From a virus, in IMG/VR virus record IMGVR_UViG_3300008954_000191, positions 1 to 29,780 of that record: a DNA stretch of 29,780 nt, one strand, 5' to 3'. The position numbers and the translations under genes were made by a program. The notes beneath the pieces are model-generated. The model had not been told where the DNA came from. It did not search any database and saw only the letters and a program-made list of their open reading frames with translations. Within the stretch, counting starts at the first letter, position 1. Each line of letters opens with the position of its first letter. Of this stretch, positions 5,824-27,027 are shown in pieces.

Positions 5824-8800
5824 ATGGTAGTATATGGTAGCAGTTATTTTAAAGTTATAGGGGCAACCGAAGTAACTGGACCTACTGGTAATACTGGTGC
5901 AACTGGACCTTCTGGACCATCTGGAGCAACCGTAGCAGGGGCAATCGGATGGAGTGGTGGTGGTATCACCGCAATGTATAAAAATGCAACGGGTGGACTT
6001 TATACAGAATTTGAAAGGTGGGAAGATGGAACTTCTAATATTTCAAATTGGACAACTCCTGATTCTATTCTAGGACCTACTGGTAATACAGAAACTATCA
6101 TATATGGTGGACATACTTATGATGCCGCTGGTGGTGCTACAGTATTTTATGTTCAAGATTCTTCAACTAAAATTACTCTCAGAAGCATTGAAGGTACTGG
6201 TGGTGTTTTAACAAATACAACATATGAAGATTTAAATACCATTGACTTAAATTATGACCGTGGAAATTTTGGTTACTTGGATGTTACAGGTGGAATTGTT
6301 TCGGGTGGTGATGGCATTACTGGTCAATTTGTTGGTGGACACAGACAAGGACTTACTGGAGCAACTTATAGTATAAGTGGTGCATCTGGTGGTATTAATG
6401 CTAAACTGAAAAGTTATAGAGAAAACTCAAAATTTTTAAGTTCTAGACACAACAATGATAATTTAGGAACAACATTTGACATCGTAACATATGATGGTGA
6501 GTTTCCTCCATATAAATTACAGATGGATGGAACTGATGGAACACTAAATCCAAATGGATTTGGTGTGGTTGAATTAGACTTAACTTCTGTTGATGGATTT
6601 GACTATACTGTTGGTAATACTGGACCAATACAACTGATTAATGTTGCAGATGCTAGTTTTGGATATACAGGAAATAATATTGGTGTATTAACAGATGTTG
6701 GTAAATCCTTTACACTCATAGTTAAAGGTGCAACATATGGAAACCAAAACAATTTCCAGTTTACAAATGTTGTTTGGCCTTTCGATAGACAACCATGTTT
6801 CAGTGGTGGAACAGATATATTTAATTTCTTCTGGTTGCCATGTGAACCAAGATATTCTCCTTGTCCAGGCGAACACAACCCCAACGGTAGTGTAATTTGT
6901 CCAGATGGTGCCGCGTGGCATGGAAATATAGTTCAATGGAACTCTACTAGTACTGTTATAGAAGAAGGAACTTCTGACGACCCATTCTTCTGTCACAATA
7001 ATGAATTAGACTGTGGTGAATTTTTATATTATCCAGAGGAAGCAGTCAACATGGTTGGCAGTGAAAGACAATCATTTGGTGGGACTGGTTCTACAGGTGC
7101 TTGCTGTAGAGGAGAAGGTAAATGCATACACACAACAGAAGGTTTGTGTACAGGATATTGGCACGGTTCTTCAACAGTATGTGGTGGATTAACTAGCGGT
7201 TTTACAGGAAGTATTTGTTTTGATACAGGTGCGTGTTGTGTTCACTACACAAATGGTGGAAAAGTAGAATGCTTCAACGATTTAAGTGTAGACGATTGTA
7301 TAAATCTTGGTAAACTTTTAGATGTTGAAACTTCCTTTGGTGGATTATCAGCAGACTGTAGAAACATGGACTGTGATAATGCTAGTAGAGATTTAGGTGC
7401 ATGTTGTGATGGTAGAGGAGGATGTTCACAGAAAACAAGAAGTGAATGTCTTACACTCGGTTATTATTTTCATGGAGAAGGAAGTGTATGTTCATTAGAT
7501 GATGGAACTGAAATTTGTTATGGTGGAACAGGTGCTTGCTGTCAATCCCGTGTACCATGTGGTATTGCAACAGGAAGTGATTGTATAAAAGATGGTAACT
7601 TATATGCAGGTGTTGGTATAGATTGTGAAGATATTACATGTAGAACCGATGAACATAGTAGTTGCGTTGCATCTGTTGCAGGGTTAGACCTTGTGCCTGG
7701 AGATGAATATGCAGGTGGTATTGTGGTTGGACTTTATAGACCATTTGGTTCACAGGTATTTGGTTCTCCTAGTTTTGGTAAAGACAAAACTACTAATTGG
7801 AATGAATTGATGCTTGGTGCAACTGGTTCTTTATCAGATAATTTAGGATTAACCTGTGATGTATATCGTTCCAAATATGATTGGCATGGATATGGGTTTA
7901 CTTCAGAAAAAGGATGTCCAGATTATAATAAATTATCATTAGAGGACGATGAGTTATCTAGACCAGATGCATATTATATGATAATCTCACCATCTCCAAT
8001 TGCAATAACTGGTGATAGAGAAGTTGTAAACTATAACAATTCAGACTTTGATGGTGCGACTCAAGAATTCTATTGGGGTAATAGAGGAAGTTCATGGGGA
8101 CCACTTTATAATCCAAACACAGGACAGGTTGATGAGATAAACGAAAAATATATTGAAACAGTATTTAAACTGTCTGAAGGATATTGGTTTAATGAAAACA
8201 TTGGTGAACAATCATTAAATGTTTTAGGAAGCCATACATTTACATCTTGCAGAAATGCACGAAGACTTGGTACAGGATATGCACAGAAACTTACAACAAA
8301 ACCCTTGCAATCTGCACATGGACTTTGGCACAGAAACTGGGGAATCTATAATAATATTAGAATCATTAATGCTGACAATGTATTATACAAAGGATACGAT
8401 GATAAAAATGGTCACTATTCATCAACAGACTTTGGTCCAGGATTGACAAGTGATTATATTTCTGCATTCAGAGCAACAAGATTAATGGATGATAACTTAA
8501 CAACCATTACAGGTGGAACAGGCACAAATATTCCTGAAGTTTCATCGTGGTATATTCCAAGTCACGATGAAATGTCATTCATTGCTTCTAATTGTATAGA
8601 CAGTAATCCACATGATTTCAATTTAAATGCTTCCTTGTTGATAAAGGGTGCTGTTCCACTTGAGGGTTGGTATTGGACATCTACTGGTGCATTTGATGAA
8701 ACAAAGGGAAGAACTGCATCAGGAGAAGGGATTATAGGTACTGGTGGTTCTACTGCTGACCCAGGCACTCTTGCATGGGCAATGAAATTTAATATAAATC

Positions 8801-8976
8801 AAGAAGAAAATAAGTTCCTTGTAGGGAAGAAAAATAGAACACAAAATACATATAAGGTAAGACCCATTCGTTTAATTAGGTGTGATGGTAAATATGCAAC
8901 GGGTGGTAATGGAAACCAAAAACTTTGGGATTTACCAAAAACATTAAGAGATTCAGACCAAGGAATTAACCAATAA
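5824..8976 (+). CDS. Collagen-like, cysteine-rich fibre with DUF1566/Lcl-type C-terminal cap
   Basis: 1050 residues. The order is: N-terminal tag MVVYGSS; a short collagen-like Gly-X-Y tract (19-36); beta-rich fibre region; a fibre domain at about 295-372 ending in a Trp motif; four GACC modules (425-606), each with about six cysteines; and a C-terminal domain at about 620-1035. The C-terminal domain has the DUF1566 (Legionella Lcl C-terminal) signature: 'SWYIPSHDEM' near 909, 'YWTST' at 950, then 'KVRPIRLIRC' near 1012. That family has a C-type-lectin-like fold used in adhesion. The stop codon is one base before the ATG of the next gene, so translation is probably coupled. A host-binding fibre role is inferred from architecture. 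The domain order is seen directly. Confidence 0.75.
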   Translation: MVVYGSSYFKVIGATEVTGPTGNTGATGPSGPSGATVAGAIGWSGGGITAMYKNATGGLYTEFERWEDGTSNISNWTTPDSILGPTGNTETIIYGGHTYDAAGGATVFYVQDSSTKITLRSIEGTGGVLTNTTYEDLNTIDLNYDRGNFGYLDVTGGIVSGGDGITGQFVGGHRQGLTGATYSISGASGGINAKLKSYRENSKFLSSRHNNDNLGTTFDIVTYDGEFPPYKLQMDGTDGTLNPNGFGVVELDLTSVDGFDYTVGNTGPIQLINVADASFGYTGNNIGVLTDVGKSFTLIVKGATYGNQNNFQFTNVVWPFDRQPCFSGGTDIFNFFWLPCEPRYSPCPGEHNPNGSVICPDGAAWHGNIVQWNSTSTVIEEGTSDDPFFCHNNELDCGEFLYYPEEAVNMVGSERQSFGGTGSTGACCRGEGKCIHTTEGLCTGYWHGSSTVCGGLTSGFTGSICFDTGACCVHYTNGGKVECFNDLSVDDCINLGKLLDVETSFGGLSADCRNMDCDNASRDLGACCDGRGGCSQKTRSECLTLGYYFHGEGSVCSLDDGTEICYGGTGACCQSRVPCGIATGSDCIKDGNLYAGVGIDCEDITCRTDEHSSCVASVAGLDLVPGDEYAGGIVVGLYRPFGSQVFGSPSFGKDKTTNWNELMLGATGSLSDNLGLTCDVYRSKYDWHGYGFTSEKGCPDYNKLSLEDDELSRPDAYYMIISPSPIAITGDREVVNYNNSDFDGATQEFYWGNRGSSWGPLYNPNTGQVDEINEKYIETVFKLSEGYWFNENIGEQSLNVLGSHTFTSCRNARRLGTGYAQKLTTKPLQSAHGLWHRNWGIYNNIRIINADNVLYKGYDDKNGHYSSTDFGPGLTSDYISAFRATRLMDDNLTTITGGTGTNIPEVSSWYIPSHDEMSFIASNCIDSNPHDFNLNASLLIKGAVPLEGWYWTSTGAFDETKGRTASGEGIIGTGGSTADPGTLAWAMKFNINQEENKFLVGKKNRTQNTYKVRPIRLIRCDGKYATGGNGNQKLWDLPKTLRDSDQGINQ

Positions 8977-8977
8977 C

Positions 8978-11900
8978 ATGCCAGTAATTTACGGTTCAAG
9001 CAGAATACAAGAAACAAGTGTTAGTGGTTCTATTCAAGGACCCACAGGTAACACTGGTCCTACAGGACCAACAGGTAACACTGGTCCTACAGGACCAACA
9101 GGTGCTACTGGTATTACTGGGGATGGAATTACATTCGAGTGGTATGATTTCGATAGTGGTGTTGCAGGATTTTCATATGGTATAACCTCTGGTGGTAATT
9201 CCTATGGTCTTGGAACAATAACATTTACTCTTGATACAGGAACAACAATTGCAGTAACTGGTTGTACAGGTGCAACAGGTGATGGTATTGCATTTGATTA
9301 TGGTCAATGGCATACATCCTTTGAACTTGATAATACTGTTAATACTTCTTCGTCTGGGAATCCATACAGTGAAATTTTTTCCCATTTAGAATCAGACGGC
9401 ACTGCTGGCGGGACTGCATATTTTAGAACTCTTACTTCAAGTGGTAGAGATATTTCTATAGAGGGTGTTACGGATTATTATATCCGAATAAGAGGAGCAA
9501 CATATGATTATGGTATTATGGGTAATACTGGAGAATTGCTTCACATATATGATGGATTATCTGCACACGGTTCATTAAATACTTTCTGGGATGATGATAA
9601 GAAAAATCTTACAGCAAGATTAACAACATTTAGAGAAGCAAAATCATCAGTAAATCTTTATCATCAAGATTCTATTGGAAATACTGCACCTGTTGGTGGT
9701 TCTAGTGGTGGTGGAACTGGTGAATTTGTTCCATTCACTTACATAACCACAAAAGATGGCAAAACCGAAATCTATTCTGGATTTCATATGGGACAAACAC
9801 ACGATTCTGTGTTGGGTGCTTCTATAGATGTAGAACATGTGTTTAGCAATTCAAAGACAATACACGATACGCAATATTCAAGTGCAAGTAATCTTGGTTC
9901 TTGTTGTTATTGTACTGATAGTGATATAGCAGACGATTATCCAGGATGTGTGGATTATGTTACAGAAGAATATTGTACTAATCTTGGTGGTGTGTTTGAT
10001 ACAACAACTTGTCTTGCAAGACCAGAAGGACCAAATTGTTATTCAGAAGGTGCTTGCTGTGTAAATGGAATATGTGCAGAAACCTCTTTGAATAAATGTA
10101 GAAATGTTTATGGTGGTTTTTATGTTGAAGGAAAGACTTGTGTTGATGTTGAAATTTTAGGAGGTTGTCCAGAACCTTGTCAAGATACAGGTGCTTGCTG
10201 TGTAGGAGGTGCTTGTTATGAAATGAGTGAATATCAATGTTCGTTTGAACCGAACAGTTTATTCGTTGATGGTGGTGTGTGTACAGGAGAAAATGCTGTA
10301 AACTGTTGTTTAGAAGGAAGCATCGGTGCTTGTTGTGTGGAAGAAAGATGCTATGAAACTTCCCCTGCGATTTGTTCAACTCTTATTGCATCGAATGGTA
10401 TTACTAAAGGAGTATTCTGGGGTGTTGGTTCTCGATGTGCAGGACCTTCTAGAATTGATGGTGGTGGTGACAATGAAGGTGCGGCATATGCACCATTTAG
10501 TTGTACATGGTCGCCAGAGAGTGGTAATACACAAGAAGAATGGTTAGAACAGTGGGGTTCATTAGGTCCTGTTGGTTTGGTTAATGTTGATGGAGTTTGT
10601 ATAGATGTAAACGGTGACCCACTGTCCAATGAAGACGGAAGTCTAATATATCCACCATGTCCTGCATGTGTTGGTTGGCAACAGCATATAGGTGGTCCTT
10701 GTGTAGATGAAAATAATAACCATGTAAACATTTGTGAATGTGTTGGTTACGGTGATGGACCTGGAGAGTGTTATGTAGAAGACCTTCCAATATGCCAACC
10801 AGGCAGTGTAGATATAGAAAACCAATGTGAGGGTATGTGTTGTTACCGAAAACAACTTGACGGTGTATGGACTTGTGGACAGAAAACAAGAGATGCATGT
10901 TCAGATATGAACGATGGTGTCGAAAATAATTACTCTCACATTAAGTGGAGTGGATGTTCAACTAACAATTATAGTTTACCACCCAACCCGATAGGACCTC
11001 CAACTTATTTGGGTGATGACCACTTAATTGAAGGTGATAACTATGTGTGTGCGAAAGGGAATAATGATAATCCTTGGATGTATCCAGAAAGAAAACCAGA
11101 TGTAATGTTGCAAGTTGATACTAATATAGAGATGTTCCAATTCTCAAATATTATTAAACCTGCACTTTCTTCTTTTGTAGACCAACTAGATTCAGTATAT
11201 GAAAAAATAGGATTTAACGATTCAGTATTTGCAGACACTTCTGTGGATGTTTCTCTTACTAATAATTATGCAATAGTAAAAGAAGGTATAAACAGTATGG
11301 CAATTGGGGATAGGGTGCTTGCTAGACCATTACAGTATGTTAAAGGTAATTTTAGAGATGTCACAGATTATATCAATACTGAAACTGGAACTAGTCACGG
11401 AAAAATATTAGTCATATTGTCTGACGGAAACTGGAGGTCAGAAGCAGAGAGAGATGCGGCACATGCAGAAGCACAAAATATAAAGAATGATGGTGTTATA
11501 ATTTACGCTATAGGTATAAACACACAAACAGAAAACACAAACCCTGATTGGGTAAGTCCTCTTGCAACTTCTTCTGTTTATTATAAAGAAATTATGCCCA
11601 ATGAAATAAAGGATACTTTAAATCAGATTGGTCATGCAATTTCATGTGGTGGTGAGGATGTTACAACTTCTACAACAACAATGAAGACAGGTAGTATTAT
11701 ATTAGCAGATGGTAATCCTTATGAATGTTGCTGTGACCATGATGGTACTGCTTTACAGGGATTAAATCTTGGTGGTAATTTAAATAATGGAATTACCGAC
11801 TTAACCAATATGTCTTGCTGTGATGAAAGTGGTGAACCATGTCCTAGTGGGTTTGATACTTCAGAGTTAATGACATCATGTTGTTGGTGGTTGAATGAAG

Positions 11901-12298: not shown

Positions 12299-12302
12299 TT
12301 GA

Positions 12303-12310
12303 TATAAATA
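12303..12310 (+). promoter_or_regulatory. T4-type late promoter TATAAATA
   Basis: A perfect late-promoter octamer lies in the 45-base gap before the 2569-codon gene. AAGGA at 12329-12333 with 10 bases to the ATG is the ribosome-binding site. The giant gene therefore appears to have its own late promoter and need not depend on read-through from the preceding fibre genes. Confidence 0.75.
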
Positions 12311-12343
12311 TATTATGGAAACTTCTACAAGGAATGAAACACA

Positions 12344-14130
12344 ATGCCAGTAATCGGAAGTAGTTCAATAACACCAGACTTTAACGCAATAGGACCTTCA
12401 GGTCCAAGTGGCGCTACTGTTGCTGGACCTACAGGGAACACTGGAGCAACTGGTGCAACTGGTGCGGTTGGTGCAACTGGTGTTCATGTCGTTTCTACTA
12501 GTAAAGCATTTCCATATTTAAATCTACACTTATCTGACGGTTCTATAGTTCAAATAGATGGAGTTGCAGGAATAACTGGAACAACTGGTGCGGTTCGTGG
12601 TGTTAATCTAGGTGATGGTATCACAATATTTGGTACAGCGGGTAATGGTGTTACTGGCGCCACACTGTGGTTTAGAGGAATCACTTCTGATGGTTCTGTT
12701 TCTATCTACTTATCTGAAGATAGTAATACTATTGCTATTAGTGGTGATACTAGCAAACAGGGAGGAACTGCGGGTACACTTGCTACAGATAGATTCTTGT
12801 ATCTTTCTGAGGGTGGTACTGCGAGTTATTCAGGATTAACATTTGAATCTGGTGGTATAATGTCATTCGATAATACTGCAACACTAGACCCAGAAGAAAA
12901 TATTATTACTACTAGTTCTGTTGCAAGTTTCGGTGAGATTGTTGGTATTACTGGCGGAGAGGTTGTTGTAGGTGGTGAAACTGCCGGTGATGGAAAAGGA
13001 ATTCAATTAGAAGTTAGACATGCTTCGGTATATAAAATTAATACACCCATTGGAATTGGTGGATTTACTGGAGAGTTTGGTTCGGAAGAAGTTTTTAGTT
13101 TCTCTGCTATTATTAATGGAAATCATATATGGGCTTTCCCATCAAATATTTACTTTGACGAAGATGATGCATACTTTTCTTGTGCAGAGGATATTGTTAA
13201 TTTTATAACGACTGATGGTGGTTCTACATGGAATGCTTCATTTGCTGCCAGAGGATATGGTGCAGAAGTTGGTGAGTGTGATGGAATACAAACATTTGGT
13301 TCTTGTTGTTATAATGATGACAATGGCGCACAACAATGTATAGAATATATTACACAAAATTCTTGTCAAGAAGATTTTAATAATGGAACTTGGGGTTCAA
13401 ACTTTTCATGTGCAGATAATTGTGGTAGAACTGCGGATGGTATTTGTTGTAGTGAGGGTGGTGATTGGGGAGGTTTTAATGACACTGGACTTTGTATTCA
13501 AGGTTCGGGAGTTGCAGAATGCAATTACTTCGGAGGAAGTTTCTGGAATTATTTTTATTATGATATTGAAGGAGAGTTGTTAGAAGAACCAGAAGAAATT
13601 AAATGCACTATGGTATTACCAGAAGGTTATGATAAATTATGTGCAGAACCTTGTATAGAAAGTCTTTGTTGTAAAGATGGTGCGTGTATTGGTGATTCTA
13701 TAGGAACTACAATACATGGTTCAGTTTCACCATTAATATGTAAGAGAGTTTTTGGTGGACAAGTAATAGAAAATGCAGTGTGCGGTGAAGTAGATTGTTG
13801 TAATTATAGTAAGATGGAAGGTGCGTGTTGTTATCCAGAAGTTGAAGGGTGTGATGTAATATCTGCATTTGATTGTACAACGAGTGGTGGTATATTCATG
13901 GGTCCAGATACTGAATGTTTAAATGATGTTTGTTGTTTTAATGATGAAATAGGTGCATGTTGTTTAGACTCTAATGCTTGTGATTGTTGTGGTTATGCCG
14001 GTGGAACTACTAACTGTTGTAAAAATCTAAACAGTTCTCTGTGTCTTAGAATTGGAGGTAGATGGATAGGTGGAAATACTTGCATAGAAGATGTCAATTG
14101 CCAGTGTGGCAGTTCAATGATGTGTATAGA
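12344..14130 (+). repeat. Diverged direct repeat, copy 1 (fibre N-terminal module)
   Basis: This stretch aligns through its length with 20088-21890. The first ~90 bases and the segments around 12604-12690 and 20348-20435 are nearly identical in DNA. The encoded protein similarity continues to about residue 595. Beyond that the two genes are unrelated in module order. Confidence 0.85.
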
Positions 14131-17100: not shown

Positions 17101-20053
17101 TTGTCCTAATGGTGGTACATTTAATGACACGCATTTATGCCCTCCAAATGGACCGGAATGCTTTGCGGAATCTTATAGTGGTGCATGTTGTATGCCAGAT
17201 GAAACATGTGAGCAACGAGGTAGTGAGGATGAGTGTAAAGGTGCAGGTGGAACTTGGCTTGGTTGTAACAGTTGTTGCAATCCAGACTGTAATGGTAATA
17301 ATGAACCAGGAACTGACTGTAATGACATAACAATTGGTCGATGTTGTTGGCCTTGGGGTGTTTGTGAGGTGGGGATTGTAGACACTGTTTGTTATGACGG
17401 TGGTGGGACTTGGAATGATGCAAATACTTGTGATGGTATTACCTGTCCACAAATGTATTGTTGTAATAATGATTGTCCATACTCATGTACTTTAATTGAA
17501 AATTTAGGAGATGTTTTATCGTGTGGTGAAGTACCACCCGCTAGTATAGTTTCAAATTGTGATGATTGTGTCAATACTTGTTATGGTTCTTGTTGTCATC
17601 CAGAAATATCTGAAACTGGTTGTATTGTATGTACTGAAGGTATATTACCGGCCGAGTGTTATGAATTAAATCATCCAGGGCCGGTAAACCCTGACGATTG
17701 GTATCAAGGACCATGTGACCAACATCCTTTCTGCACATTATCCACAGGTGCATGTTGTCTTGGTGGTGATTGTTGTGGTACTAATTGTAATGATTATACC
17801 CCATCAGAGTGTTCAGCACTTCCTGCTTATAACTTTGAAGGATGTGGAACTCAATGTATTGATTTTACCGAAAGTTGTCCTGCTGATTGTGAGATTATAA
17901 ATTGTGCTGATTATGAACCAGAAGACCAAGAATTTATAGACTGTTGTGGTGCGTGTTGCATTTCTGAACCAACTCTCTGGAAATGTTTTGGTGTTAATGA
18001 TGGTGTCGATGATGTGGGTGTTACACTATCAGAGTGTGACACAATCGGTGGTACTTGGCACGGTGGTGGTAGTGTGTGCGATGGACAATGTTTAGCAATC
18101 GATACAAGTTGTTGTATTCCTATTTTAGAGAACGGAATATTACAGAATGGCGGAGAGTGTAGAAGTCCTGGTGAAATGCTACCTAATGGTACAATAAATC
18201 ATGAAGTTGAACCGGGAACAAGTTGTGAATATCCATCAGGGTGTTATCAAAACTGTATAAACTATTGTCAGACAGATATGTATGGAACAGAGCATTGTGG
18301 AAGGCCTGCGTTGATGCATTGGGAAATGTCTTGTGGTGACTTGGAATCCGAAGGTGTTTGTAATTTTGGTGCATGTTGTTTAGAGTCAAACGACCATTGT
18401 GTTGACACTATTCAAGATTATGTTGATGTTGGGGATGGCTTGGGATGTACGGTATCAGAAAGTTTAATTTGCGAAGATATTTGTCCTGGAGAAGTTGGAG
18501 AGGTTGGATGTTGCAGTGGTGCTTCCGATACCGACCATGGTAGATGTTGTATTGGAATAGAATGTAAAATATTGACAGAACTAGAGTGTCTAGAGGAAAT
18601 TATTGCCGCCGGAACTGGGATACCAGCAGACATGCTCGACGCTTCATTTACTACAGGTCAGTGTTGTGATAATGAAGGTATTCAGCATTGTATAGATGGA
18701 GTTGGTACATCTTGCAGTTCTTCTTCTGGATTCGCAGGTGAGTGCGAGCCAGGTGGAGGCCTCCACATGTCTGCAGCGACTGCAATTGCTATAGCAGGTG
18801 GGTGGTATCCTGGTTATCAATCGGGTTGTAACGAAGATGACGAGAGTATTGCCGGATGTGGTCCTAGTTATGGTAGATGTTGTTTGCGAGCATATGATGG
18901 TACTTGGGGGGACGAGGGTTTATGTCGGGAAACAGTTGATGCATTAGGGTGTTATAACTATTGTGTATCGATGTATGATGCTACAGGTCCCCTGTATGGA
19001 GAGCGAAGATGTGGTCCGCCGTTCGATACTGTCACCGAAGTCAATTGGGTTTTCATAAGAGTTACTGAATCTTGGGATGATTATGCTAACTGTATGGGGT
19101 GTAATACAAATCCCTCCCCAGATGATGGTCCTGGGGCAGAAAGTTGTAGTAGTTTTGGGTCTATGATAAACCCATGTACAAAGGATTGGGTCGTAAATGG
19201 ACAGTTTTCTTGCGATAACATAATGGAGGAAGCACCACCACCAAATAATTTTGATTGTTGTGATATGTGTATCGAAAATGCAATTGTTCAACCCAGTAGT
19301 TGCCATTATGGTGCGGAGTATTGTTGTTGTGAGAAATGTCTGGATTGTGAAAAATTGCAAAAGTTGCCTGGTGTAAACTGTCCTCCCGGCCATCCTTGTC
19401 ATGTAACAGAAAGTGGTTCTGGTGCGTGTTGTATTGGAAATGAATGCTCGACAACTCCTGATGAATCTTCTTGCAATGCTTTAGGTGGCACTTGGCAAGG
19501 CGAAGATACACTCTGTTCACAGACTCCCTGCGGGAGTTCTAGAGGAGCATGTTGTTGTACAGAGGAAGTTGGGGGTTGTGATATTGCGAGCGGACCTTGC
19601 ACATGTCATTTGTCGTCAAGTCAAAGTGATTGTGAAGATAGTATTAGTGGAGGCACAACCTGTCAATGGAAAGGTTATGGAACATCATGTGGTCATAACG
19701 GAGAAGTTTGCTACAACAGATACCATTGTTGTTGTTGTAACACACATGGTGATTCTTTTTGTGAGAATGTTCCGCTTGGGGCGGAGCCTGGTGCATATTG
19801 TTCAACCGTCTATGGAATTTGCTGTGACTCTCAACCTGCGTATGGGCTTTGTCCAACAGGTTCAGATGCATGTGACTATTTAGATTGCGGATGGGCAACG
19901 GAGTGTGAGAATTGCTTCGACATGAACTGCGCGGGGCATGAAACACTGCATCAAACTTTTGAATATCTTCAACTTCCAGACGGAAGGTGTGAATGGATTG
20001 AATGTAGCAGAGAGGATGGTTGCCCATATCCTCTATGCACGAACGGAACATAA
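12344..20053 (+). CDS. Giant cysteine-rich adhesin, paralogue A
   Basis: 2569 residues. Tag MPVIGSSS and a collagen-like tract (17-46) lead into a beta-rich fibre region. At about 252-305 is a fibre domain with 'AEDIVNFITTDGG' and a nearby Trp, a motif shared with many phage fibres. From residue 319 to the end the protein is a string of roughly 40 short cysteine modules. About 20 have the exact GACC start and a pattern close to GACC-x(3-5)-C-x(5-8)-C-x(3)-GG-x-aromatic-x-G-x(3-4)-C-x(3)-C. In sampled modules about one residue in seven is Cys, consistent with three disulfides per module. There are no membrane segments. The first ~1.8 kb is paralogous to the gene at 20088. Modules of this kind occur, as I recall, in planctomycete and other surface proteins. 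A long extracellular binding filament is inferred. Confidence 0.75.
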   Translation: MPVIGSSSITPDFNAIGPSGPSGATVAGPTGNTGATGATGAVGATGVHVVSTSKAFPYLNLHLSDGSIVQIDGVAGITGTTGAVRGVNLGDGITIFGTAGNGVTGATLWFRGITSDGSVSIYLSEDSNTIAISGDTSKQGGTAGTLATDRFLYLSEGGTASYSGLTFESGGIMSFDNTATLDPEENIITTSSVASFGEIVGITGGEVVVGGETAGDGKGIQLEVRHASVYKINTPIGIGGFTGEFGSEEVFSFSAIINGNHIWAFPSNIYFDEDDAYFSCAEDIVNFITTDGGSTWNASFAARGYGAEVGECDGIQTFGSCCYNDDNGAQQCIEYITQNSCQEDFNNGTWGSNFSCADNCGRTADGICCSEGGDWGGFNDTGLCIQGSGVAECNYFGGSFWNYFYYDIEGELLEEPEEIKCTMVLPEGYDKLCAEPCIESLCCKDGACIGDSIGTTIHGSVSPLICKRVFGGQVIENAVCGEVDCCNYSKMEGACCYPEVEGCDVISAFDCTTSGGIFMGPDTECLNDVCCFNDEIGACCLDSNACDCCGYAGGTTNCCKNLNSSLCLRIGGRWIGGNTCIEDVNCQCGSSMMCIEVDEPTGACCISGDYTNQCYNNITQNSCQALFGGEYMGNNSTCDDELCGWDAYEGACCRGKNDCYTDTEENCLSLGYTWNGSPNCTGVKCCEDDTVGGCCWFDIGLRTTTCTDLNICQCNELNESTWNSKKCKDGLQCEPDPFGACCREYICTTETEGDCNKGGGKWQGEFDCKSETCGSPDPEGACCIGSKCSITTEINCKGAGGLYQGDNSKCESDTCYFKNGCCPDNTPYVHICGQLSSPTIGQECGTCTESHPDCTEGTCICAHEFGTNQTKCFNYNQLGCYDIRPLECTSTQACIDEYGSNYACMNKSNCDSCDNEYGYCGELCENPDCGGTPTGACCIVGTCFEDSYTQKTCIEAGGEYKGDGLTCKDVTCIQPPTGACCWKETCFLDMEEDDCLALDGGFYHGDYTTKCPNCVPIGVCCIDHECSSMQMTEADCINAGGDWEGDGSEECTDCNPVGACCVDWKCIPYTEKFCLALGGNYAGDEVECSAHPNCTEPTGGCCQEDGNCIQLSLENCAKYWGIDTAQAVKYEYWIDDECPDPIEDFCFGTCCRGNPSNAIFPDCTDATCLPQECSEESRDACMEQGCTGWWSRYYRTCEELADNTNDYPHCSSGCCTCEYSGACCVLDECQIVNTQDDCTALGGVFHGDQTTCVDFSCPPSGDGWGACCYKHSGDNDYPECNSCEYACFDGVIWDEDYCLNVAGGGEACNLWNPYLTCDQIKDVGGTKCCGDTPQGACCDGATCTYGTEADCTTGIYQGDFTSCGTNPCGGGACCDYDTGNCTDETEEQCNNIWNFYFHGVGTSCSDENITCCSDTEFGICCLPPSVGGCIENWPQCECDAMLGLFFPDGNSCTDCQLLELGACCPDQSSATECYETNQQICNGRGDNFQGNGTICGDGSVCDEPVYGMCCDHRFGTICEHPCGAGCPITCFDHVLEVDCVGWGTDSNIIWRPNEVCANDCPCNDCGACCWGDCENPTDCTDTLSQCCPNGGTFNDTHLCPPNGPECFAESYSGACCMPDETCEQRGSEDECKGAGGTWLGCNSCCNPDCNGNNEPGTDCNDITIGRCCWPWGVCEVGIVDTVCYDGGGTWNDANTCDGITCPQMYCCNNDCPYSCTLIENLGDVLSCGEVPPASIVSNCDDCVNTCYGSCCHPEISETGCIVCTEGILPAECYELNHPGPVNPDDWYQGPCDQHPFCTLSTGACCLGGDCCGTNCNDYTPSECSALPAYNFEGCGTQCIDFTESCPADCEIINCADYEPEDQEFIDCCGACCISEPTLWKCFGVNDGVDDVGVTLSECDTIGGTWHGGGSVCDGQCLAIDTSCCIPILENGILQNGGECRSPGEMLPNGTINHEVEPGTSCEYPSGCYQNCINYCQTDMYGTEHCGRPALMHWEMSCGDLESEGVCNFGACCLESNDHCVDTIQDYVDVGDGLGCTVSESLICEDICPGEVGEVGCCSGASDTDHGRCCIGIECKILTELECLEEIIAAGTGIPADMLDASFTTGQCCDNEGIQHCIDGVGTSCSSSSGFAGECEPGGGLHMSAATAIAIAGGWYPGYQSGCNEDDESIAGCGPSYGRCCLRAYDGTWGDEGLCRETVDALGCYNYCVSMYDATGPLYGERRCGPPFDTVTEVNWVFIRVTESWDDYANCMGCNTNPSPDDGPGAESCSSFGSMINPCTKDWVVNGQFSCDNIMEEAPPPNNFDCCDMCIENAIVQPSSCHYGAEYCCCEKCLDCEKLQKLPGVNCPPGHPCHVTESGSGACCIGNECSTTPDESSCNALGGTWQGEDTLCSQTPCGSSRGACCCTEEVGGCDIASGPCTCHLSSSQSDCEDSISGGTTCQWKGYGTSCGHNGEVCYNRYHCCCCNTHGDSFCENVPLGAEPGAYCSTVYGICCDSQPAYGLCPTGSDACDYLDCGWATECENCFDMNCAGHETLHQTFEYLQLPDGRCEWIECSREDGCPYPLCTNGT
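17645..17687 (+). repeat. GC-rich 9-bp inverted repeat inside a coding region
   Basis: TTACCGGCC at 17645-17653 and its reverse complement at 17679-17687 flank a 25-base loop inside the 2569-codon gene. It stands out because the surrounding DNA is AT-rich. It could form an mRNA hairpin, but no function is evident. Confidence 0.5.
18753..18766. repeat. Perfect 14-bp palindrome inside a coding region
   Basis: GTGGAGGCCTCCAC is self-complementary over all 14 bases and lies within the 2569-codon gene. It may be chance or a protein-binding site. Nothing around it suggests a regulatory role. Confidence 0.6.
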
Positions 20054-20056
20054 ATA
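20049..20056 (+). promoter_or_regulatory. Degenerate late-promoter-like octamer CATAAATA
   Basis: Seven of eight bases match the T4 late octamer. It overlaps the stop codon of the 2569-codon gene and sits at nearly the same distance from the ATG at 20088 as the perfect octamer does before the paralogue at 12344. The gap sequence also resembles that paralogue's upstream gap, so this is probably a decayed copy of the same promoter. Confidence 0.4.
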
Positions 20057-20087
20057 AAATGGAGATTCTATCTAGGAATAAAAAACA

Positions 20088-21890
20088 ATGCCAGTAATCG
20101 GAAGTAGTTCAATAACACCAGACTTTAACGCAGTTGGTCCATCAGGTCCAAGTGGCGCTACTGTTGCTGGACCTACAGGTAATACTGGTGCAACTGGTGC
20201 AACTGGTAATACTGGTGCAACTGGTATTCATGTGGTGTCTACTAGTAAAAACTTTCCATATTTAAATTTAAACCTATCAGATGGTAGTGTTGTCCAAATA
20301 AAGGGTGTTGCAGGGATTACAGGAGCAACAGGGACGGTTAATGGGGTTAATCTTGGTGATGGTATCACAATATTTAGTACAGCGGGTAATGGTGTTACTG
20401 GCGCCACACTGTGGTTTAGAGGAATTACTTCGGATGGTTCTGTTTCGATTTATATTTCAGAAGACAGCAATACTATTGCAATCAGTGGTGATAATAGTAA
20501 ACAAGGAGGAACTGCTGGCACACTTGCTACAGATAGATTCTTATATCTCTCTGAAGGTGGTACTGCAAGTGCATCGGGTTTAACTTTCGAGTCTGGTGGT
20601 ATAATGTCATTCGACAATACTGCAACACTAGACCCAGAAGAAAATATTATATTTGTGCCATCAATAGAATCTATTGATTTTGTAGGGATTACTGGTGGAG
20701 AATATATTAGTAGTGGTGAAACTGCCGGTGATGGAACAGGAATTCAATTAGAAGTTAGACATGCTTCTGTATATAAAGTCAGCACTCCAATAGGAATTGC
20801 AGGGTTCACTGGTGAATTTAATTCAGATGAAATCTTTAGTTTTACACTTGTTATTGAAAGCAACGACCTATGGGACTGGCCTACAAATGTTTACTTTGAC
20901 GAAGACGATGCATACTTCTCTTGTGCAGAAGACATTATAAATTTCATAAGCAATGATGGTGGAGTTACATGGAATGCATCATTCACTGTTAGAGGATACG
21001 GAGTATCTCATGGAGATTGCGATGGTATAATAAATATTGGTTCTTGTTGTTATATCGATGACCAAGGCGATAATCAATGTATAGAATATACAACAAAAGA
21101 AATATGCGAAGAAAAGAATATGGCAGTATGGAGTATGCTTTCTGATTGTTCGGGAAATTGTGGTGTTACTGCTGAAGGAATTTGTTGTAGTGATGGTGGA
21201 AACTGGGGAAACTATATTGGAACTGGTGTTTGCATCGAAGGAAAAGGTTTAGCAGAATGTAATTACTTTGGTGGAAGTTTCTGGGAATACTTATATTATG
21301 AAGATGCAGAAACAGAAGATGGTGCATGGTATTTAAAAGAACTAGAAACTCCAATACCAATTAATTGTTACAGCATGGAAGATTTGTGTGCAAGTCCTTG
21401 TGAAGAAGAATGGGTTGCTTGTTGTGTAGATGGTGTTTGTGTTGGAGATAGTGCAGGTTCTAGTGAACTTGGTGCAGTATCGTCTAATATTTGTAAATAT
21501 GTTTTGGGTGGTGTTCCAATAGAAGGTGGTATTTGTGAAAGTGTTGATTGTTGCGACCATAGTATTGTGGTTGGTGCATGTTGTCTTGAAGAAATAGAAC
21601 AGTGTCAAGATGTCACAAATCAAGTATGTTCAGGCCTTGGTGGTATATTCATGGGACCTGGAACTGATTGTGAAACGGACATTTGTTGTTTTAATAATGA
21701 AACAGGAATTTGTTGTTTAAATGCTTCACAGTGTAACTGTTGTGATTCTCCATTAGAAACACAAAATAACTGTTGTAAAAATTTAACATTCTCGGAGTGT
21801 GAATATGTTGGTGGTTCATGGCACGCTGGAACTACTTGTCCAACAGGTTCAAATGCAAGTTGTCAGTGCGGTAAATCAGATGTTTGTTTT
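20088..21890 (+). repeat. Diverged direct repeat, copy 2 (fibre N-terminal module)
   Basis: Partner of 12344-14130. Both copies keep the start codon, the collagen-like tract and the fibre domain. The spacing between copies is about 7.7 kb. Confidence 0.85.
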
Positions 21891-24800
21891 TTGGGTACTG
21901 GTGCATGTTGTACTAATGGGACTTGTTCCGAAACTGACGAAGGAGGTTGTGGTGGTGATTTTCAAGGAAGTGGTACATCTTGTGATACAACTTCATGTGG
22001 TGGTTGTTGCTGTACTTGTGTGGATGGTGAGTCAGTTTTAAATGATGGTACAGCAGATTCATGTCAGGCTGCGGGAGGTTCGTTCTCCAATACTACATGT
22101 GAAAATCTACCAAGTGATTTCTCTTGTTGCGCTGGTTGTCAAAGTAATGCAGATTGTCTTTTTGGAGGAATGCAATTCTGTTGCGAAGAAGGGGTATGTG
22201 AAATATGTCCTGGCGAACTTTGTAAAAATGATGAGAATTGTCCTCCAGGAAGTTGTTGTTGTGACGGGGTATGTGGTGACTTGAAAGATTCGGGAATTCC
22301 TGGTGAATGTATTGCTTGCAATGGTGGTGGAAGTTGTCCAGGTGCATGTTGTGTACTTCCAAATACACCATTAGCACATTGTGCCCACACGACTGAAGAA
22401 GCATGTGATGCTGTTGGTGGTGGATTTCATGGATGCGATAGTATATGTGATTTCATGACAGCATGGCAATGTCTTGAACAAGCGGATTATTGTTGTTGCT
22501 GTTGGGCAGGTGGTGATACATGTATGCCATTTTGGCCACAGTTTGATGGTATGTGTTCGGGTACTTGTTATACGCCATTTGCGCCTCAAGAGTGTGAAGA
22601 TGGACCGTGTTGTGAAAGTATAGATGAAAACACTCCAATATGGTTGAGAAGTGTGCATTACAGATGTTGCAAACCCCAAAGTGGTGCAGGTGATATTCCA
22701 AACTGTAATGGGTGTCTTGGTGATTGTGACAATAATATTGGAGGAAAGTGTTGGCCAAATGGTTGCACTACTTGCGAATGTGAAGACATGTGCGGTTGGA
22801 CATGTATTGATGGTGATTGTGTCGAGGAAAGATGTTGTGGATTCTGGCCTACATGGTGTCCCGGTGGTTTCTATTGTGGTGAAAAATGTTGTATGAGTCA
22901 CCAACAGTGTTGTGGGACAGCACAAAGTCTATGTTGCCATGAAGAATTAGAACATTGTTGTTTTAGTGACTGGTTTGATGGTGCAGATTGGATACCGACC
23001 AAGTGTTGCAAGATGGGAGGTGAGTTCTATCCTATATTGGAGAATCCGTGTGATGGAGATGCGGTTGACTGTGGTTGTCAAAATTGTGAGTATGAAAGTG
23101 GATGCAATGCTTGGGGTGGTAATTGGGATAGTGATTGTGGTACTGGACCAGAAGAAGGGTGCTGTTGGTGCAGTCCGTGTGAAACTGTAGAAGGTTGCCC
23201 TGGTGATTGGCAAGGTGATAATGTTGGTGGTCCTCCACCTCATGGTGGATATTGTGATTGGGGAGCATGTTCACTAAGTGGTGTGTTGCCTCCAAACGAT
23301 GAATGTTATATAACAGACCATAATACTTGTGATGTTGACCAAGGAGTGTGGACTTTTTCTGCTAATTCTGGATGTAAGACTTATGTCCACCAAGCAGGAG
23401 AAAGTTGTTGCAAACATGAATGGTCTGATGGTAACCCAAAATGTTGTAAGGATGCAGAATACAATAGTAGTGGGGAAATTACAGATGCAGGTGAGCAATG
23501 TTGTTTGAGTCTTACTGGAAAAGAAAAAGAATGTTGTAATTTGCAGGGTGAAGAAGGAAATCCACCCGAAACATGTTGCCCTGGTTTTGGTGAGGTAAAT
23601 TGTTGTGGTTATGAAGAAAGATGTGATTGTGAAGGGGTTTGTGAAATTGTTGCATTAGAATGTGGTAATGCGAAGGGTTACAACTGTGTTGCATATGAGT
23701 GTCATGCTAGTGGTGAACCCAAACTTGGACACGAACATGAACCAGAATGGTTTGGGCAGTGTTGTACTGCTTGGGCAGCGGTGTGGGACTGTCCTGGAGG
23801 TGATTACCCCGGCCAAGGAAGTTGGGACGATGACCCCGAACAGGAAGGTTGCACATTTACTGGTGAATGGAAATGTTGCCCCTATGTAAAAGACTGTGAG
23901 GGTATTGATATGGCAGCGATAGGTTATATCAACGGTGAAGACTGTCCATGCGTTTATCCAAGAACCGCAGGAAGTGGTTATGGTTGTCAACCCACATGGA
24001 ACGGTTGTGGTTATACAGAAAATGGTCCTTGCAGTGACTATCCCTATGACAACCACTGGTCATGTTGTGGGGGTACTGTCACAATGAAAAGAATGGATTG
24101 TTGTCCACAGATAGGAGAATGTAAAAACACTTGTGCTTGTGGCGATAGTGACCAGCAATGTCAAAGTGAAGATGGATATCCACACTGCTCTTGCACTGAA
24201 AGTACAGGAGTAAATACTTCGTTTCATCCTTCATACCCTGATACTGGTTGTTGTAATGGACAATGTTTTGATAATCGCGAAGGGGGTTCACATCCACCAG
24301 TGTGGAATTGTGGTATCGAATATCGCGCATGGTGTTGCGGTACTGGTTCAACTGCGATTCTATGTGAAGCAGGACAAAAATGTTGCGAAAAAGCAATTTG
24401 GGATGAGAACGGAGAACTTGGGTATCAAGGTTTTTGTCATGATTATGACGACTATTGTGAACCAAATAGAACTGAATGTTGTCTGAATGGAGAATCTTAC
24501 TATGACCATTGGATTGGTGGGGTGCGGGAATCTTGTTGCGCGGATGTGTGTAGCATTTGCTGGGACAACCCAGACACCGCGTTGGTTTGTATGGCAAACA
24601 ATAGTATTGTATCCTCTGGGGACTGCGATGCCAGCGATTGTTGCTGTTGCGTGGATGGGGGAACACAGGCTTGTGGACCAGGACAGCAGTGTTGTAATGT
24701 AGGCGACATGGATAGTCCTGGTCAGAAATGCTGTAATGACAATGGTGATGGAATATATTGTTCGCAAATATGCGACTGTAAGGGCACACCAGATGGACCA

Positions 24801-25304
24801 TCTTGCACTATGGGATGTATGTCAGACATTGGTAAAGATGAACACATTTGCTCCTGTTGTGAAGCAGAGTTTGGAATCACTTATATACCTGATAGTGCTG
24901 AAAGAAGTATTAATCAACCAGCAATTGCACCAGACAAAACAATCAACGACCCATCTATGCCAGATTTTATTCCATATTATCATAGCACAAAAGAACCAAT
25001 TGGAAAAAATGAGGGTGCATGTTGTTGGGGTGAAGTCAGGCCTCACGGTCATCAGCAACATTGTAGGAACTGGACTCGCGAACAATGTGACGGTACTCTT
25101 GGTAGATTTTGCGGTGAGGGAACTGAATGCGTTACATATGATTCGGGTGGAATACCACCATCATGTCCATGCAAGCCTAGTGATGTGCCTAAGACACCAA
25201 GTTCGATAAAAAATAACTCATCAGAAGGAATTGGTAGATATCTGGTGAATGGATTATGTCAAGAAATGTATTGTGAAGGAAATTGTGAGTGGCCTCGATG
25301 TTAA
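20088..25304 (+). CDS. Giant cysteine-rich adhesin, paralogue B, with granulin- and WAP-like patterns
   Basis: 1738 residues. The N-terminal tag, collagen-like tract and fibre domain (about 250-305) match the gene at 12344, and the match continues into the first cysteine modules to about residue 600. After that, GACC modules are sparse and CC pairs become denser and more irregular. Residues 684-729 contain CKNDENCPPGSCCCDGVCG, with the C-x5-C-x5-CC-x3-C spacing of WAP four-disulfide-core domains. Residues 924-958 contain CC-x5-CC-x6-CC-x6-CC, close to granulin repeats (CC-x6-CC-x5-CC at their core). Near residue 1610 a proline-rich, cysteine-free linker precedes a final GACC module. AGGA near 20073 is the likely ribosome-binding site. 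Probably a virion adhesin. The homology to WAP or granulin folds is pattern-based only. Confidence 0.75.
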   Translation: MPVIGSSSITPDFNAVGPSGPSGATVAGPTGNTGATGATGNTGATGIHVVSTSKNFPYLNLNLSDGSVVQIKGVAGITGATGTVNGVNLGDGITIFSTAGNGVTGATLWFRGITSDGSVSIYISEDSNTIAISGDNSKQGGTAGTLATDRFLYLSEGGTASASGLTFESGGIMSFDNTATLDPEENIIFVPSIESIDFVGITGGEYISSGETAGDGTGIQLEVRHASVYKVSTPIGIAGFTGEFNSDEIFSFTLVIESNDLWDWPTNVYFDEDDAYFSCAEDIINFISNDGGVTWNASFTVRGYGVSHGDCDGIINIGSCCYIDDQGDNQCIEYTTKEICEEKNMAVWSMLSDCSGNCGVTAEGICCSDGGNWGNYIGTGVCIEGKGLAECNYFGGSFWEYLYYEDAETEDGAWYLKELETPIPINCYSMEDLCASPCEEEWVACCVDGVCVGDSAGSSELGAVSSNICKYVLGGVPIEGGICESVDCCDHSIVVGACCLEEIEQCQDVTNQVCSGLGGIFMGPGTDCETDICCFNNETGICCLNASQCNCCDSPLETQNNCCKNLTFSECEYVGGSWHAGTTCPTGSNASCQCGKSDVCFLGTGACCTNGTCSETDEGGCGGDFQGSGTSCDTTSCGGCCCTCVDGESVLNDGTADSCQAAGGSFSNTTCENLPSDFSCCAGCQSNADCLFGGMQFCCEEGVCEICPGELCKNDENCPPGSCCCDGVCGDLKDSGIPGECIACNGGGSCPGACCVLPNTPLAHCAHTTEEACDAVGGGFHGCDSICDFMTAWQCLEQADYCCCCWAGGDTCMPFWPQFDGMCSGTCYTPFAPQECEDGPCCESIDENTPIWLRSVHYRCCKPQSGAGDIPNCNGCLGDCDNNIGGKCWPNGCTTCECEDMCGWTCIDGDCVEERCCGFWPTWCPGGFYCGEKCCMSHQQCCGTAQSLCCHEELEHCCFSDWFDGADWIPTKCCKMGGEFYPILENPCDGDAVDCGCQNCEYESGCNAWGGNWDSDCGTGPEEGCCWCSPCETVEGCPGDWQGDNVGGPPPHGGYCDWGACSLSGVLPPNDECYITDHNTCDVDQGVWTFSANSGCKTYVHQAGESCCKHEWSDGNPKCCKDAEYNSSGEITDAGEQCCLSLTGKEKECCNLQGEEGNPPETCCPGFGEVNCCGYEERCDCEGVCEIVALECGNAKGYNCVAYECHASGEPKLGHEHEPEWFGQCCTAWAAVWDCPGGDYPGQGSWDDDPEQEGCTFTGEWKCCPYVKDCEGIDMAAIGYINGEDCPCVYPRTAGSGYGCQPTWNGCGYTENGPCSDYPYDNHWSCCGGTVTMKRMDCCPQIGECKNTCACGDSDQQCQSEDGYPHCSCTESTGVNTSFHPSYPDTGCCNGQCFDNREGGSHPPVWNCGIEYRAWCCGTGSTAILCEAGQKCCEKAIWDENGELGYQGFCHDYDDYCEPNRTECCLNGESYYDHWIGGVRESCCADVCSICWDNPDTALVCMANNSIVSSGDCDASDCCCCVDGGTQACGPGQQCCNVGDMDSPGQKCCNDNGDGIYCSQICDCKGTPDGPSCTMGCMSDIGKDEHICSCCEAEFGITYIPDSAERSINQPAIAPDKTINDPSMPDFIPYYHSTKEPIGKNEGACCWGEVRPHGHQQHCRNWTREQCDGTLGRFCGEGTECVTYDSGGIPPSCPCKPSDVPKTPSSIKNNSSEGIGRYLVNGLCQEMYCEGNCEWPRC

Positions 25305-25308
25305 TGAT

Positions 25309-25316
25309 TATAAATA
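25309..25316 (+). promoter_or_regulatory. T4-type late promoter TATAAATA
   Basis: A perfect late octamer sits in the 28-base gap before the gene at 25333. AAAGG at 25321-25325 is its ribosome-binding site. Initiation would fall at about 25322, so the transcript leader would be very short and would start at or in that site. Confidence 0.65.
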
Positions 25317-25332
25317 ATATAAAGGAAACTAT

Positions 25333-27027
25333 ATGAGTATTCAACATAGGTCTAGAATTAAATCTATTGCAGACTACACCTCGAACGCAAATAGTCAAGG
25401 TGCATGTTGTTACGCTCGCGCAGAAGGTCCAATTCTTGAATTTTATAATACCTGTGTTGCTAATGGTGGTCATTGGCAACCTGTAGAAAATAATGACATC
25501 ACACAAATTTCATGCCCTGATTTGGGTGCAACTGGTTGTTGCTGTTCTTGCAGTTATGTAGATAACTGGGGAGAGGGAGCGGTAGGTGGAGCAGGTGGAA
25601 ACGGATTTTTTGATACCTATGACGAAAGCAGTCAAAACTGCGAAAATATCAATTATGGAAACTATACTTTCCCTTGTCATCAAGGTGGTTTACAAGACAA
25701 TGTAACTTTTTGCGAATGTTCTGACAAAGGTGGTGTGTGGGCGCAAGGAATATCTTGTGGTGCATATACAGATATCGTACCTTTAAATGACGACCCAAAT
25801 GCTCCAAATGCAGTAAGAATTGGCGCACATATGTTATGCACGAAGGGTGGAACAATTCCCGATGTTAGATGGCCTGGTGCATGTTGTTCTGGTATTACTT
25901 GTGATAGTACTTGCTCTCCAAAAGAATGTGCAGTTATTGGTAATTCTCATGGAGCAACAGGAGTTAGTTGGAATCCAAACCACTATTGCGTTCTACCATA
26001 CGGTAATGGTTGGTACGACCCTGATGAACAAGGAGATGATATTGTTCTGCCGTTATGTGATAGTGAACAATATACAGAAGGAGAAAGCAAAGGATTTTAT
26101 GAAAAGGATAAAAGAAGTGGTGTTTACATTGCAACGGGCGATATAAATGCTTTATTGCTTGATAATTATTCTGATACTTTAAAATCTAGTTGCTCATATT
26201 TAAAATCCAAAGAATTAGTTTGTAGCAGTGAAACTAAAACTGTATGCGATGAATATAAAGGTATTTGGTCTGGTTATAATAAAGACGGAAAACAAATAGA
26301 ATGTTCAGATACAACTACCACAGATATACAAACATATATGACAAATAAAAACAAAATACCAAGAAGTACTATAAACACTTGGAAACTTGGTGATAGAGTT
26401 TTGGGTCAAGGTAGATATATTGGTGAATTTATTATTGCAGATGATACACACAGTCCAGGTAGTGAATGTTTTGGTACATCAGAAAACACAGGCATATGCT
26501 ATCCGTATTATCCAAAAAATAATGATAATACTAAAAACTCTAATAAAACATTTGCTATAATAATTGCAGAAAATGATTTTGGTGGTTCGAGTCTGGCATA
26601 TGAACCAGATTTAAATTCTTCTAATGTATTGAGCAGTTCTAATTGGGATTCTTGGTATAACCATTCATACAATAATCTAAACTTAACAAAAAATATTAAT
26701 AGAACATATAATAAAAATATTTGGTGGAATTGGAATATAGCATCAAAAGATTTATGGGGATTCATAGCAAATCAGATTAATGATTTGGATTTTATTTCCA
26801 ATACAACGATATCTGATGATACTCCAAATTTCCCATACACACCTTTACAAAAAAGTAATGTTACATTCTATTGGACATCTACTTTTGAAACCAGTTTTGA
26901 TTATGGAACTAAAACACAATTAACATATTGTCAAAGTTTTGGAGATTCTCCTATGGTTGTTTTGTCTAGACGAGATAATAAAAACAGAGCGAGAGCAGTT
27001 TTAGCACTTTTAGTGGTAGAGGATTAA
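25333..27027 (+). CDS. Cysteine-module adhesin with DUF1566/Lcl-type C-terminal cap, no collagen tag
   Basis: 564 residues. It lacks the MPVI...GSS tag and collagen tract of the four preceding genes and opens almost directly with a GACC module (near residue 24). Further cysteine modules run to about residue 335. From about 350 the cysteines thin out and a domain resembling the cap of the 5824-8976 protein appears: 'VLGQGRYIGEFIIA' near 357, 'FYWTST' with its Tyr at 513, and an arginine-rich 'NRARAVLAL' close in the position of the family's VRPVR motif. Between them, about 395-470 is very Asn-rich and the DNA is more AT-rich. It has its own late promoter and ribosome-binding site. It may be a separate tip subunit. 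That role is inferred. Confidence 0.7.
   Translation: MSIQHRSRIKSIADYTSNANSQGACCYARAEGPILEFYNTCVANGGHWQPVENNDITQISCPDLGATGCCCSCSYVDNWGEGAVGGAGGNGFFDTYDESSQNCENINYGNYTFPCHQGGLQDNVTFCECSDKGGVWAQGISCGAYTDIVPLNDDPNAPNAVRIGAHMLCTKGGTIPDVRWPGACCSGITCDSTCSPKECAVIGNSHGATGVSWNPNHYCVLPYGNGWYDPDEQGDDIVLPLCDSEQYTEGESKGFYEKDKRSGVYIATGDINALLLDNYSDTLKSSCSYLKSKELVCSSETKTVCDEYKGIWSGYNKDGKQIECSDTTTTDIQTYMTNKNKIPRSTINTWKLGDRVLGQGRYIGEFIIADDTHSPGSECFGTSENTGICYPYYPKNNDNTKNSNKTFAIIIAENDFGGSSLAYEPDLNSSNVLSSSNWDSWYNHSYNNLNLTKNINRTYNKNIWWNWNIASKDLWGFIANQINDLDFISNTTISDDTPNFPYTPLQKSNVTFYWTSTFETSFDYGTKTQLTYCQSFGDSPMVVLSRRDNKNRARAVLALLVVED

Follow-up and report, generated by a model that had tools for sequence, protein, structure and literature searches.

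The window analysed here is the whole 29,780-nt IMG/VR virus record IMGVR_UViG_3300008954_000191, a full record yet only part of a genome, and much of it is taken up by a block of five consecutive genes (A to E), most of which carry a small six-cysteine module. This block is probably the fibre cluster with which a T4-like phage recognises its host, a planctomycete of the Phycisphaerales kind; arrays of host-derived, disulfide-stapled modules would bind the host, and adhesion is, with reasonable confidence, the most likely single role of the arrays. All five open reading frames start and stop exactly at the positions in Table 1, all on the + strand, and together fill 71% of the window, in agreement with an earlier note on this DNA that had described five same-strand genes covering more than two thirds of it.

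The module has the consensus GACCxxxxCxxxTExxCxxxGGxxxGxxTxCxxxxC, with an aromatic residue (Y, W or F) at the second position past the GG. A hidden Markov model (HMM) was built from 339 modules, all from Planctomycetota loci, with phage sequences excluded to avoid circularity, and was applied with a cut-off of E<0.01. It identified 26 modules in the window proteins (17 in C, and 3 each in A, B and D; best E 1e-12) and none in 200 composition-matched shuffles of the five proteins, and a separate genome-style profile search also returned 26. The six-cysteine modules described in the earlier note are thus real by an independent bacterial model. The claim that all five genes are built from them holds for A to D, with only 3 canonical copies in D, but not for E, which has no significant module, and the "dozens" of copies amount to the 26 significant matches plus diverged copies, mostly in gene C. 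Collagen-like tags, likewise claimed for all five genes, were found as short Gly-X-Y runs (18–30 residues) in A to D but not in E.

Cysteine content is 3.4% in A, 5.8% in B, 12.8% in C, 12.5% in D and 5.0% in E; the figure for the module-free proteins of a sister phage (described below) is ~1.3%. Gene D has 217 cysteines, most of them in cysteine-rich sequence other than canonical modules, and no solved structure was matched by its middle part. Searches of the five proteins against Pfam, PHROGs and NCBIfam gave only VWA, collagen and tag-limited tail-fibre matches. The VWA domain of gene B (residues 720–853) reached 28.6 bits as an isolated query, above the cut-off of 23.8, and 23.5 bits within the full-length protein, and its DxSxS metal site, read from the sequence, is not intact (VDTNIEM). 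No signal peptides were found in the genes of the block, and no hydrophobic segment (highest 19-residue Kyte-Doolittle mean, 1.26). Apart from the collagen tags, the window has a single tandem DNA repeat, of two copies, so its modules are not recent DNA duplications.

Directly downstream of the block are the neck genes gp13 and gp14 (phrog_211, 7e-40; phrog_460, 1e-80), and upstream is a VrlC-type gene with a short product (336 aa), of which the N-terminus alone matches (phrog_358, 4.8e-10; DUF4815, 3e-5). Gp13 was matched by 1,597 phage records, and the nearest named relatives by this protein (~38–42% identity) are the Pelagibacter phages HTVC008M and Mosig and Methylophilales phages, all Kyanoviridae. 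In marine T4-like phages, the region between VrlC and the neck genes is a hypervariable host recognition cluster (PMC7029224), and because a VrlC-type gene and gp13/gp14 bound the present block as described there, the locus is, judged by gene content and order, this cluster in a T4-like (Kyanoviridae-type) phage. The same neighbourhood, from VrlC to gp13, was found in HTVC008M, Mosig and Melnitz, whose records give "tail fiber" or unnamed genes there, and VrlC also stands upstream of the fibre region in HTVC008M. The cluster therefore sits where it does in these phages, and a specific replacement of gp9, gp11, gp12 and wac, as earlier proposed, was not upheld; their absence from the window says little because the window is a genome fragment.

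The best available evidence that the module is a virion surface module, grafted independently onto several baseplate-region proteins, comes by analogy from other phage contigs. In another T4-like lineage (L094, L095, L099, L124 and L128–L130), the baseplate wedge protein gp6 extends into one or two modules, residues 6–602 matching gp6 (phrog_219, 3e-155) and the modules lying at ~678–790; because of this fusion to gp6, the module is placed on the virion. Modules also occur within a 441-aa protein adjoining gp6 (L136/L138) and in a gene near hub genes (L101, L134 and L137).

For the clade of the window, relatives were found in which the block is kept in place and its arrays are remodelled. All five genes are present in contig L003; L131, on the 123-kb contig G599 of the sister phage, has gp13 and gp14 that are 93% and 97% identical to those of the window; and nine further contigs, found via the small gene before gp13, mostly carry cysteine-module or cysteine-rich genes in the same place. 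The search with that small gene gave 11 contigs in all, most of them with cysteine-module genes there, and hardly any clade contig lacks gene E. When the window is compared with L003, gp13 is 92% identical, and gene C is 59% identical overall, with 2569 aa in the window and 1695 aa in L003 (a difference of 874 residues). Within gene C, identity is mostly 82–94% over the first 600 residues (66% in the last block), followed by a 70% shoulder at residues 600–700 and by an array that is 0–54% identical with large gaps, and the L003 array holds a VWA domain with an intact metal site (DVSGS). A C-terminal cap, YxLPxGxCxWMxCxxxxCPYPxC, is common to genes C and D, L007, L008/L009 and L010, and thus to five lineages or more. 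Since the N-terminal ~600 residues and the cap are conserved and the array is divergent, it is the middle that is remodelled, between two fixed ends. In gene A, the C-terminal domain is 95% identical in L003, 48% in L113 and 35% in L011. Together with the host-recognition locus, the lack of signal peptides, the collagen tags, a VWA domain and the gp6–module fusions elsewhere, the conserved N-termini and hypervariable array support the modular attachment-type apparatus that the earlier note had proposed.

In cellular genomes, the module is largely planctomycete. A scan of 84,980 species genomes gave 76 distinct loci, of which 75 were assigned to Planctomycetota (by title or by shared phylum sample) and one to Eisenbacteria, and four of the module-bearing genomes hold 41–104 copies each. 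The module was present in 29 of 81 sampled genomes of the order of G001, a Phycisphaerales metagenome-assembled genome (MAG) (E<1e-7), in 5 of 119 genomes of an even sample of the planctomycete phylum (E<1e-5), and in 12 of 47 genomes of the Eisenbacteria phylum. The label "Alphaproteobacteria" on L067 was not accepted as a sign of wider occurrence, because L067 has the same phylum sample as the planctomycete L024. The cellular module proteins contain protease, PQQ-dehydrogenase and galactose-binding-like domains and end in dockerin or EF-hand sequences; with secreted, dockerin-bearing carriers and, as the nearest solved relative, the iRhom ectodomain (below), the earlier description of the apparatus as extracellular-matrix-like is apt. 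Among phages, no module candidate at all was found in the five nearest named phages; tblastn gave no match in 50,697 phage records, with whole genes or module tandems as queries, or in plasmids, with gene C as query; and no model of the module was found in Pfam or NCBIfam. By these searches, the module appears not to have been seen previously in phages. A viral contig with no recognised T4-type neighbours (L125:4806-6639) has small module genes beside a collagen-like-repeat gene, and the module may thus not be confined to T4-like phages.

Two observations bear on the host. First, a search for tRNA genes on the 123-kb sister contig yielded one, a tRNA-Cys (GCA; L146:3550-3623, − strand; same gene at L145:16050-16123), which over 70 nt shares 96% identity with the tRNA-Cys of Phycisphaerales-order genomes. 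Elsewhere, identity was up to 93% over 57–58 nt for the rest of the planctomycete phylum, up to 88% over 56–57 nt for Eisenbacteria, and 80–90% or less for plasmids, with no match in E. coli; for phages, the best listed matches were 78–84%, and 2 of the 54 matching records, ranked below these, reached 95–99% over a shorter stretch. Because six virion-type genes account for 64% of the cysteine codons of the sister phage, the tRNA-Cys has an obvious purpose. Second, in a related phage, a 114-bp module with a GC content of 0.60 lies within a gene mostly below 0.45 GC (L015/L092 and L093, separate assemblies that differ around the module), and its DNA matches modules of the Planctomycetota MAG Nau_6 at 95–96% identity. 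The direction was read as host to phage because of this composition, and on these sequence comparisons it is a recent capture of exactly one module. Given the Phycisphaerales-like tRNA-Cys and the captured Nau_6-like module, the host of the clade is very probably a planctomycete, and probably near Phycisphaerales.

For the fold, AlphaFold2 was run on three modules of the window (52 planctomycete tandem rows), producing beta-beta-alpha-beta units with a mean predicted local distance difference test score (pLDDT) of 89.2. When the module profile was searched against PDB sequences, only iRhom1 (E 2.5e-5) and iRhom2 (E 0.003) matched at E<10, each over two stretches per chain. The first Foldseek match of the model was also iRhom2 (1.6 Å over 41 columns, probability 0.60, E 4.7, not significant alone), and VIA-align gave Z under 2. 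The luminal domain of iRhom, with 8 disulfides, was reported in a cryo-EM paper to have no known structural relative (PMC11248996); from the profile match, it appears to contain two copies of this bacterial and phage module, and shared descent of the module and the iRhom homology domain (IRHD) is likely, not proven. The likeness consists of the profile match and the top Foldseek match; the IRHD of iRhom1 and iRhom2 is the ectodomain of a eukaryotic membrane pseudoprotease, whereas the phage proteins have no rhomboid-like membrane domain and, as far as their sequences indicate, are not iRhoms, only the module being in common. A four-cysteine variant found in planctomycetes (one gene family, probably one event) is without both C1 and C4, which suggests that these two pair as a disulfide. 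Profile search against viral and bacterial proteins and structure prediction of tandem modules had been named as checks in the earlier note; the former matched planctomycete secreted proteins and T4-like contigs, and the latter gave a confident mini-fold.

Table 1. Features of the five-gene block and its surroundings; positions refer to the window unless a contig is named.
Feature	Position	Strand	Remarks
VrlC-type gene, short	1116..2126	+	Left border of host recognition cluster; phrog_358, DUF4815 N-terminus
Tail-fibre-type protein	2161..4491	+	Not cysteine-rich; phrog_4492, E 5.6e-37
Conserved cluster gene	4510..5811	+	No known family; one stretch common with the 2161–4491 gene
Gene A, 1050 aa	5824..8976	+	Collagen tag, 3 six-cysteine modules, large conserved C-terminal domain
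Gene A Gly-X-Y run	5878..5931	+	Residues 19–36
Gene A module region	7093..7641	+	
Gene A C-terminal domain	7624..8973	+	
Gene B, 1106 aa	8978..12298	+	Collagen tag, 3 modules, VWA domain, cysteine-rich tail
Gene B Gly-X-Y run	9038..9127	+	Residues 21–50
Gene B module region	10046..10441	+	
Gene B VWA domain	11135..11536	+	
Gene C, 2569 aa	12344..20053	+	Collagen tag, conserved N-terminal ~600 residues, hypervariable array, conserved C-terminal cap
Gene C Gly-X-Y run	12425..12487	+	Residues 28–48
Gene C main module array	13817..17287	+	
Gene C, three tandem modules	15140..15514	+	Taken for structure prediction
Gene C isolated canonical module	19418..19531	+	Near gene end
Gene C conserved C-terminal cap	19958..20050	+	YLQLPDGRCEWIECSREDGCPYPLC
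Gene D, 1738 aa	20088..25304	+	N-terminal half paralogous to C; canonical modules, other cysteine-rich sequence, cap
Gene D Gly-X-Y run	20169..20231	+	Residues 28–48
Gene D canonical modules	21570..22451	+	
Gene D conserved C-terminal cap	25233..25301	+	GRYLVNGLCQEMYCEGNCEWPRC
Gene E, 564 aa	25333..27027	+	Some cysteine motifs, no significant module, no collagen tag
Small conserved gene	27101..27613	+	Adjoins neck genes; query for clade finding
Neck protein gp13	27698..28507	+	Head-tail adaptor Ad2; right border
Neck protein gp14	28519..29448	+	Head closure Hc2
Captured module	L015:8288-8397 (L092:8004-8113, L093:4487-4596)		Versus L016:4001-4110, L017:2-108

Outside the block, a homing-endonuclease-type gene (phrog_314; window:29487-29780) directly follows gp14, with no counterpart there in L003. 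Promoter and terminator scans gave nothing above chance. On sister contigs, the upstream order continues with gp6 (phrog_219), a gp25-like protein and a further cysteine-rich gene. This sixth cysteine-rich module gene (1363–1384 aa; L109:5885-10036 and L144:8866-12957, both − strand), outside the window, lies between a tail protein and the gp25/gp6 genes. In the sister phage, a thioredoxin/glutaredoxin-like domain (CGWC) is fused to a glutamine-synthetase-type domain (L141:13259-14752, − strand), which might bear on the thiol chemistry of the cysteine-rich proteins, and a long gene run resembling, by eye, sugar-nucleotide or glycan synthesis was seen at L140:8450-18870 and L141:169-8689. The end of gene A had, by eye, an Lcl-like look, which was not confirmed, with no Pfam match at E<10 and no PDB match.

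In the proposed mechanism, genes A to D would encode long virion-attached proteins, anchored at the N-terminus, where a conserved part bears a short, probably trimerising collagen-like tag. In the middle of each, small six-cysteine modules stapled by disulfides would follow one another, interspersed with VWA and other domains, and C and D would end in the conserved cap. The modules would derive from the secreted or surface proteins of the host itself and would be gained, lost and swapped as units, so that the exposed surface changes fast and the ends stay. They would oxidise outside the cell, with cysteine demand supported by the phage's own tRNA-Cys, and the arrays would most likely bind the extracellular, cysteine-module-rich surface of the host, bringing the virion to the cell. 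A wider version, held tentatively and at somewhat less than even confidence, is that planctomycete T4-like phages capture host surface modules singly, carry a host-type tRNA-Cys and dock into a cysteine-rich surface, the same ancient module having built the iRhom ectodomain.

Several points weigh against this mechanism. The virion location of A to E is drawn from synteny and from analogy to the gp6 fusions, and a spacer rod, too, could have fixed ends and a variable middle. Proteins so rich in cysteine, produced in a reducing cytoplasm, need either oxidation after lysis or some help, and no dedicated oxidase was identified. The tRNA-Cys is on the sister contig and the captured module in a more distant clade member, neither being in the window. 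For gene A, the C-terminal domain gave no resolved fold (pLDDT 34; 4-sequence alignment) and no match among solved structures, and for gene E no module passed the profile cut-off (E<0.01). Gp13 was absent from 400 Phycisphaerales-order genomes, a search made without a positive control and hence uninformative. A lytic phage need not occur in host genomes.

The alternative that survives best, although unlikely as a full account, is molecular mimicry, in which host modules let the virion enter a disulfide- or dockerin-type matrix, or act as a decoy for grazers or surface proteases, with no specific receptor. It overlaps with the adhesion mechanism, and the confidences are not meant to sum. The same module family occurs in dozens of secreted host proteins with dockerin ends, and a near-identical module is present in phage and planctomycete, as mimicry would have it; the module–module matrix is itself hypothetical, however, and hypervariability fits receptor or immune pressure equally.

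Slightly less probable still is a structural spacer or armour, in which disulfide-hardened rods provide length and stiffness or protease protection, and recognition falls to the gene A C-terminal domain, gene E or the 2161–4491 fibre. Both ends of gene C are conserved while its middle varies in length, the variable region is not at the tip, and sequence is conserved in genes A and E, where modules are few or lacking, all of which would suit such a rod. A pure spacer, however, need not use host surface modules or shift its composition so quickly, fresh host modules are captured, and the gp6 fusions, with only one or two modules, are too short for a spacer.

Metal-binding (zinc or iron) cysteine clusters, rather than disulfide domains, are improbable: the very high cysteine content, the CC motifs and cytoplasmic production without a signal peptide would allow them, but the relatives in cells are secreted proteins, 8 disulfides staple the related iRhom domain (PMC11248996), and C1 and C4 are lost together in the four-cysteine variant, as a disulfide pair would be. 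Least probable of all are secreted or intracellular effectors freed at lysis, which would accord with the secretion of the cellular module proteins and with the small, scattered module genes of some other phage contigs (L096), but not with the lack of signal peptides, the collagen tags, the syntenic place in the fibre cluster and the gp6 fusion in other phages.

The adhesion-based fibre cluster is best compared with the host recognition cluster of pelagimyophages and cyanomyophages, with which it shares a T4-like phage, the position between VrlC and the neck genes, hypervariability and large same-strand structural genes, and for which collagen repeats have been reported among the domains (PMC7029224). 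It differs in that six-cysteine modules dominate here, with none in the five nearest named phages, and in that a planctomycete, rather than SAR11 or cyanobacteria, is likely to be the host. The module itself resembles that of Phycisphaerales secreted proteins in consensus, tandem arrangement and profile match, but copies there adjoin protease, PQQ-dehydrogenase or galactose-binding-like domains and dockerin or EF-hand ends, whereas phage copies stand behind collagen tags or on gp6. Collagen-tagged phage tail fibres, such as those of E. coli O157 prophages (PMC3368898), share the short Gly-X-Y tag and PHROG tail-fibre matches; the match is confined to the low-complexity tag, and module arrays are not found there. 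The Legionella collagen-like adhesin Lcl is an analogy only (collagen tag plus recognition domain), its C-terminal domain not being found here. A T4-like fibre cluster is thus a known kind of system, and its build from a six-cysteine module appears, by the present searches, to be new in phages.

A literature search found no phage of planctomycetes, and the block would provide a genome-based handle on planctomycete T4-like viruses, with a named attachment module. It would also offer a readable case of fibre evolution, in which capture from host DNA follows module boundaries and the modules are shuffled in arrays between conserved ends, and in which a single tRNA-Cys ties translation supply to one class of virion protein. 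Beyond phages, the iRhom luminal domain gains a plausible bacterial counterpart, a relationship that is directly testable.

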